41,685 nt of DNA from SAR86 cluster bacterium. Lineage in GTDB: Bacteria > Pseudomonadota > Gammaproteobacteria > Magnimaribacterales > Magnimaribacteraceae. Of this stretch, positions 27,410 to 27,989 are shown one piece after another. Numbering within the stretch: position 1 is the first letter of the stretch; each line of letters starts with the position of its first letter. Position numbers and translations under genes: made by a program. The notes under the pieces were generated by a model. It was not told where the DNA came from and did no database searches. It was given only the letters and a program-made list of their open reading frames with translations. The stretch is taken from positions 1 through 41,685 of the forward strand of contig JAQWNM010000003.1 of assembly GCA_029268615.1 (NCBI GenBank), in the 5' to 3' direction.

Positions 27410-27436
27410 CTTGTAAAATTTAATTTTAACCATATA
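27410..27436 (+). promoter_or_regulatory. Candidate heat-shock (sigma-32) promoter of hsp20
   Basis: CTTGTAA at 27410-27416 and CCATATA at 27430-27436 are separated by 13 bp. They resemble the sigma-32 elements CTTGAAA and CCCCATNT at the right spacing. A sigma-70 reading is poorer, because the nearest TATAAT (27437-27442) lies 20 bp from TTGTAA. The predicted transcription start, around 27443, is just before the first hairpin of the leader. Confidence 0.4.
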
Positions 27437-27444
27437 TATAATAT

Positions 27445-27493
27445 GGATGCCTAAATAGGGTCCATTTTTATTAACTTGCTTAAATTAAGGAGT
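27445..27493 (+). promoter_or_regulatory. ROSE-like RNA thermometer in the hsp20 leader
   Basis: Two hairpins are visible. The upstream one (27445-27463) pairs GGAU with GUCC and CCU with AGG around an AAAU loop, with one bulged G. The downstream one (27474-27493) pairs ACUU-CUUA with UAAGGAGU around a 3-nt loop, with G27478 bulged and a U-G pair. That buries the AAGGAG ribosome-binding site (27487-27492), 6 nt before the ATG. The UUGCU with a bulged G facing the Shine-Dalgarno is the conserved core of ROSE elements upstream of small heat-shock genes. The fold was derived by hand. Confidence 0.55.
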
Positions 27494-27498
27494 AAATT

Positions 27499-27945
27499 AT
27501 GGTTACAACAATAGAAACTATATGGAGAGATATTTCTCCATACGCCGTAGGATTCGATAGATCTCTCAATGCTTTGTCTTCTCTAGCAAATTCAAAGTCT
27601 CAAACGTCAAACTATCCACCGTATAATATACGAAGAGTTAGTGACGACCAATATACCATTGAACTAGCTTTAGCTGGCTTCGATGAAAAAGATATAGATA
27701 TAGAGCTTGCCGAAGATACCTTGACTATAAAAGGAGAAAAAAAGGATGACATGTCAGAGGGTCTTGTTCACCAAGGTCTGGCTTCAAGAGATTTCATCAA
27801 AAAATTTATACTTTCAGATGATATGATTGTTAAAGGTGCCGCTTTATCTAACGGCATGCTTTATGTTGGTATCGAAAGAATAATACCTGATCATAAAAAA
27901 CCTCAGAAAATAGAATTAACTTCTAAAAAAAATCTTTTGGGATAA
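27499..27945 (+). CDS. Small heat-shock protein, Hsp20/IbpA type
   Basis: This is a cytoplasmic holdase chaperone that binds unfolding proteins. The 148-residue protein has an alpha-crystallin domain from about residue 38 (YNIRRVSDDQYTIELALAGF) through TLTIKGEKK and FILSDDMIVKGAALSNGMLYV near residue 115. The C-terminal tail KPQKIEL holds the I-x-L-type anchor. The N-terminal region (RSLNALSSL) is like IbpA/IbpB. It has a strong AAGGAG ribosome-binding site inside a thermometer-like hairpin and a strong terminator after it, so it is a single-gene unit. It may correspond to ibpA, but I do not separate the paralogues. Confidence 0.95.
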   Translation: MVTTIETIWRDISPYAVGFDRSLNALSSLANSKSQTSNYPPYNIRRVSDDQYTIELALAGFDEKDIDIELAEDTLTIKGEKKDDMSEGLVHQGLASRDFIKKFILSDDMIVKGAALSNGMLYVGIERIIPDHKKPQKIELTSKKNLLG

Positions 27946-27960
27946 TAGGATATTATAAAC

Positions 27961-27989
27961 AAAAGGAAGCTAACTTGCTTCCTTTTTTT
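27961..27989. terminator. Bidirectional rho-independent terminator between hsp20 and aceA
   Basis: A perfect 10-bp stem (AAAAGGAAGC with GCTTCCTTTT) closes a 6-nt loop TAACTT and is followed by further T residues on the plus strand. The complementary A-run upstream gives a U-tract for the minus strand too. It lies between the convergent ends of hsp20 (27945) and aceA (28004) and can serve both. Confidence 0.85.

Follow-up and report, generated by a model that had tools for sequence, protein, structure and literature searches.

What kind of element is the 56-nt leader (27443-27498) that precedes an hsp20 gene (start ATG at 27499) in a SAR86 cluster bacterium, and could it make the synthesis of the encoded chaperone depend on temperature? 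The leader lies in the 41,685-nt stretch of DNA analyzed here as a whole (hereafter, the window), and is, in all likelihood, an RNA thermometer of the ROSE type with two hairpins, governing a small heat-shock chaperone that resembles IbpA, the temperature switching being attributed to it by homology. This reading, already put forward by a first-pass annotation made from the letters of the window, is backed by the sequence, an Rfam match, the promoter motif and its conservation, the presence of an rpoH gene, hairpins that are conserved across SAR86, PS1 and SAR11 and covary, and the decay of the leader after gene loss. The element falls within a type already described, the short ROSE with two hairpins found at Pseudomonas ibpA, and its own novelty is modest; it is the extension to phages that is the part worth following.

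The hsp20 Leader and Its Promoter

The features of the locus are collected in Table 1. The promoter (CTTGTAA-N12-ACCATAT, 27410-27435) agrees with the sigma-32 consensus at 12/14 positions, which is rarely matched when the upstream region is dinucleotide-shuffled (p of 0.005), and a score of at least 12 is reached by 79% of 81 related promoters vs. 0.7% of shuffles, which bears out the sigma-32-like promoter that had been placed directly 5' of the leader. Of the consensus CTTGAA-N(13-18)-CNCCATAT for RpoH promoters, a counterpart is thus found directly upstream of the leader, with a spacer of N12 that is one base under the published range of N(13-18) (PMC3669281) and 2 nt below that of most relatives. 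The 1.77 Mb genome from which the window comes encodes rpoH (394 bits). As to the gene itself, the closest NCBIfam model to its product is IbpA, the score falling below the cut-off of that model, and the product is an ordinary Hsp20.

Table 1. Features of the hsp20 locus in the window.
Feature	Position	Strand	Sequence or basis
-35 element, sigma-32-like promoter	27410-27416	+	CTTGTAA; CTTGAAA/CTTGATT in most relatives
-10 element, sigma-32-like promoter	27429-27435	+	ACCATAT; CCCATAT/CCCCATAT in relatives
Putative transcription start	27442-27443	+	Deduced from the promoter, 7-8 nt 3' of the -10
RF02523 (ROSE_3) match	27441-27504	+	Rfam
Hairpin I	27443-27465	+	AUGGAU[G]CCU-AAAU-AGGGUCCAU; bulged G at 27449; core UGCC/GGGU; sequence and covariation
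Hairpin II (putative thermosensor)	27474-27493	+	ACUU[G]CUUA-AAU-UAAGGAGU; 8 bp, bulged G at 27478, U-G pair; sequence, Rfam, comparison
Shine-Dalgarno (SD), inside hairpin II	27487-27492	+	AAGGAG; sequence
hsp20 (IbpA-like small heat-shock protein, 148 aa)	27499-27945	+	PF00011, 59.1 bits
Probable intrinsic terminator of hsp20	27961-27989	+	AAAAGGAAGC-TAACTT-GCTTCCTTTT and a T run; read from the sequence

Within the leader, the sequence is just as first described, with two hairpins, the second of which encloses AAGGAG in an 8-bp stem containing a bulged G and a U-G pair. Several of the features by which short ROSE elements are recognized are found here: a U(U/C)GCU motif that has a bulged G and pairs with the SD within the 3' hairpin, a stable 5' hairpin I (present in the relatives as well), and a small heat-shock gene as the one whose 5' UTR holds the element. 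A bulged-G motif, Y[G]C, is common to hairpin I and hairpin II, and hairpin I carries [TC]GC[CT]/GGG in all of the leaders, as it does in the Rfam consensus. As to the strong SD amid SD-poor genes, to which attention had been drawn, hsp20 ranks second in anti-SD pairing among the 31 likely genes of the window and is one of only two with a 5-base match, and about half of these genes are without an SD.

In the proposed mechanism, an RpoH-type RNA polymerase would transcribe hsp20 from the promoter above, yielding the 56-nt leader, in which, at normal sea temperature, hairpin II would keep the SD base-paired to ACUU[G]CU, an imperfect anti-SD, and thereby bar ribosomes from loading. Warming would open this weak stem (a bulged G, a U-G pair and A-U pairs) and let translation start, while hairpin I might act as a stable 5' stem aiding the folding or protecting the transcript.

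Covariance Model Searches

The search with ROSE covariance models, which had been suggested as a check, returned RF02523 above its gathering score (44.1 bits vs. 43, a margin of only 1.1 bits), and this was the only match over a gathering score when the whole window was scanned against Rfam. Over the relatives and the class, few Rfam ROSE_3 matches were seen, and in the sample of the order only the window passes the cut-off. This scarcity is a limit of sensitivity, since model R1 finds matches in 60/199 genomes of the order (the weak matches including some false ones), and marine relatives are mostly missed by Rfam. Weak R1 matches at three loci (L139, L140 and L142) were rejected as ROSE elements, having a different leader and gene and no UUGCU core, and a fourth (L155) was judged false and not counted. 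No second ROSE copy was found by R1 in the whole genome of the window, even at an E of 5.

Conservation, Covariation and Decay

Orthologues in the family, together with 80 named loci, gave 97 readable leaders, and both hairpins are present in 97/97 of them, representing SAR86, PS1/OCS116, AG-447-type alphaproteobacteria and Pelagibacteraceae/SAR11-type bacteria. MAFFT alignments of all the leaders were dropped, as they set the hairpin arms off by one base, and covariation was for this reason counted on a motif-anchored, non-redundant set of 49 stems (hairpin I) and on an alignment fitted to R1 (whole structure). Each of the first five outer pairs of hairpin I is formed in 43-49 of the 49 stems by 5-6 standard pair types, and at least five outer pairs are found in 82% of the stems vs. 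0.06% of dinucleotide shuffles. For the whole structure, in the R1-fitted alignment, which itself leans to the structure, 95.1% of the cells are paired, 101 cells carry a change in both partners (mean of the shuffles, 23), and the covariation score is 0.425, as compared with 0.151 for shuffled versions and no more than 0.07 for slid ones. Compensatory changes of the kind that had been called for are thus strong in hairpin I, whereas hairpin II shows little covariation because its core pairs are nearly invariant: the ACUU[G]CU/AGGAG core is kept in 50/50 distinct sequences, the few changes being A-U to C-G in two and U-A to A-U in four. The UUGCU/SD pairing, the loss of which in close relatives would have spoken against a thermometer, has not been lost.

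The element also follows the gene. It is present in 20/20 family genomes with a close hsp20, while in those without one it was limited to a single case at the end of a contig (G022) and to a pair of decayed remnants. One of the remnants belongs to a SAR86 genome (G008) that is collinear with another (G003), with flanks 89-91% identical on both sides and exactly the hsp20 ORF missing; in the orphan leader left behind, TTGCTT has become TTGTT, AAGGAG has become AAAGAG, and the -10 is altered as well. The other genome (G004, loci L150/L161) holds a similar orphan, a ROSE leader decayed after the loss of hsp20.

The hsp20 of PS1/OCS116 alphaproteobacteria (five loci: L030, L031, L033, L035 and L044) is 65-67% identical to that of the window, and in the tree it groups with SAR86 f1 (100/99), apart from other SAR86 hsp20 genes, on account of which the gene, together with a similar leader, seems to have crossed between the classes. 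In another SAR86 family, f2 (L144, L147, L148 and L157), the hsp20 leader has three hairpins and a UCGCU core.

Folding and Alternative Explanations

The fold of the single sequence is unremarkable (z of -0.75, with 38/200 shuffles folding as well), which is why the case rests on comparison. Taken by itself, such a z might suggest that the hairpins arose by chance in an AT-rich leader, an explanation to which hardly any weight can be given, as it is refuted by covariation far over that of shuffles and is further opposed by the Rfam E of 5.8e-6 over the window and the co-occurrence with hsp20. ViennaRNA, moreover, places its minimum for hairpin II of the window in another register, UUGCUU/GAGUAA, which at 37 °C is approximately 1.5 kcal/mol better than the ROSE one; that the RNA really adopts this structure, with the ROSE register a coincidence, is nevertheless very improbable, as the former is fully possible in only 11/50 distinct relatives and the latter is fully paired in 50/50.

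A somewhat more serious, albeit still unlikely, contender is a structured 5' UTR that only stabilizes the mRNA or tunes its translation and does not switch within the temperature range of the organism. Folding across temperatures, likewise suggested as a check, was not informative: nearest-neighbor folding gave no sharp opening of the SD and its computed accessibility (ViennaRNA) is almost constant over 4-47 °C, and in the alternative register half of the SD would be open whatever the temperature. Against such a plain UTR stand the restriction of the element to hsp20, the sigma-32 promoter, a ROSE core invariant in 50/50 sequences, and the thermoregulation proven for the same architecture in Pseudomonas (PMC3669281). 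We take the flat computed profile to reflect the limits of the energy model, although no sharp switch is seen in it. Non-canonical pairs, which the nearest-neighbor model ignores, reportedly stabilize ROSE cores.

Relation to Known Thermometers

The short ROSE-like thermometer of Pseudomonas ibpA represses translation at 25 °C and allows it at 42 °C (Krajewski et al. 2013, PMC3669281); it is hairpin II that melts, and hairpin I remains closed (PMC3669281). The window leader shares with it and with RF02523 the two hairpins, the U(U/C)GCU anti-SD with its bulged G, the SD in hairpin II, a free AUG, a UTR of approximately 60 nt, a sigma-32 promoter and an IbpA-type gene. It differs in its AT-richness, hairpin II having fewer G-C clamps, in its length (56 nt vs. 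61-62 nt) and in its host, a streamlined marine lineage; most of the marine relatives tested are under the cut-off of Rfam or not found. The “minimal” two-hairpin ROSE of the first-pass annotation is not a new form, having been shown experimentally for Pseudomonas ibpA (PMC3669281). Classical ROSE elements, such as those of Bradyrhizobium hspA and E. coli ibpA, likewise carry a UUGCU/SD core in their last hairpin, yet comprise three to four hairpins, whereas the window leader has only two. An SD-masking hairpin is also what FourU thermometers have, and this assignment was rejected, as the SD does not face four consecutive U. The reading of the leader as a ROSE thermometer would place a two-step heat response (transcription by RpoH and translation by an RNA thermometer) in some of the most abundant bacteria of the ocean, and would make their thermal response testable from sequence at low growth temperatures.

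Viral and Phage hsp20 Leaders

Searches of IMG/VR viral contigs (L163-L282 and L299-L418), the matches of which are not independent of each other, found hsp20 downstream of the pattern ACTTGCTT..AGGAGT..ATG in 92/120 and downstream of ACTCGCTT..AAGGAG..ATG in 100/120 of the matches listed, vs. 0/120 of those listed for a control with a scrambled core of the same composition; of the 20 remaining matches listed for ACTCGCTT, at least seven run into the end of the contig soon after the ATG. Hairpin I with at least four outer pairs was present, among the matches listed, in 62/92 (ACTTGCTT) and 73/100 (ACTCGCTT) leaders vs. 1/120 in the control, and TATAAATA lay upstream in 32/92 of the listed ACTTGCTT leaders of viral hsp20 vs. 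0.9% of background stretches.

Among annotated phages (loci L283-L298), two hairpins were seen by inspection in 14/15 leaders, i.e., those of S-CRM01, S-RIM44, S-PM2, metaG-MbCM1, P-SSM3, S-H9-1, S-E7, ACG-2014f, ACG-2014d, P-TIM40, Pelagibacter phages Mosig and HTVC103P, Agrobacterium phage Atu_ph07 and PA5oct, the exception being S-TIM5; the unannotated marine virus AG-345-E02 has them too. None of the 18 phage loci tested gave an Rfam ROSE match, and no paper describing ROSE leaders on phage hsp20 was found in the open-access literature. In a joint hsp20 tree, several nodes of which are weak, the viral sequences interleave with cellular groups.

ROSE-type thermometers are, then, probably general on the hsp20 genes of marine phages (cyanophages, pelagiphages and some jumbo phages), where the promoter just 5' of them would often be TATAAATA/TAAATA, of the phage-late type, and not a sigma-32 one, which would put a virus-carried chaperone under direct RNA temperature control, with the thermometer-hsp20 cassette being exchanged among phages and ocean bacteria that are not related to one another (SAR86, PS1 and SAR11). 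Phages may, in other words, carry chaperones under a temperature sensor of their own, and the RNA family is suggested to be much wider (SAR11, PS1 and phage genomes) than Rfam shows.

The TATAAATA/TAAATA motif is often seen just upstream of the two-hairpin phage leaders. ROSE-like leaders also stand 5' of a second viral gene family encoding proteins of 63-84 aa (L314, L368, L401 and L404, as well as L325, L355 and L349, where hairpin I is less clear), which look phasin-like by eye and gave no confident Pfam or PHROGs match, and a similar leader precedes an AhpC/TSA peroxiredoxin gene on one viral contig (L307).
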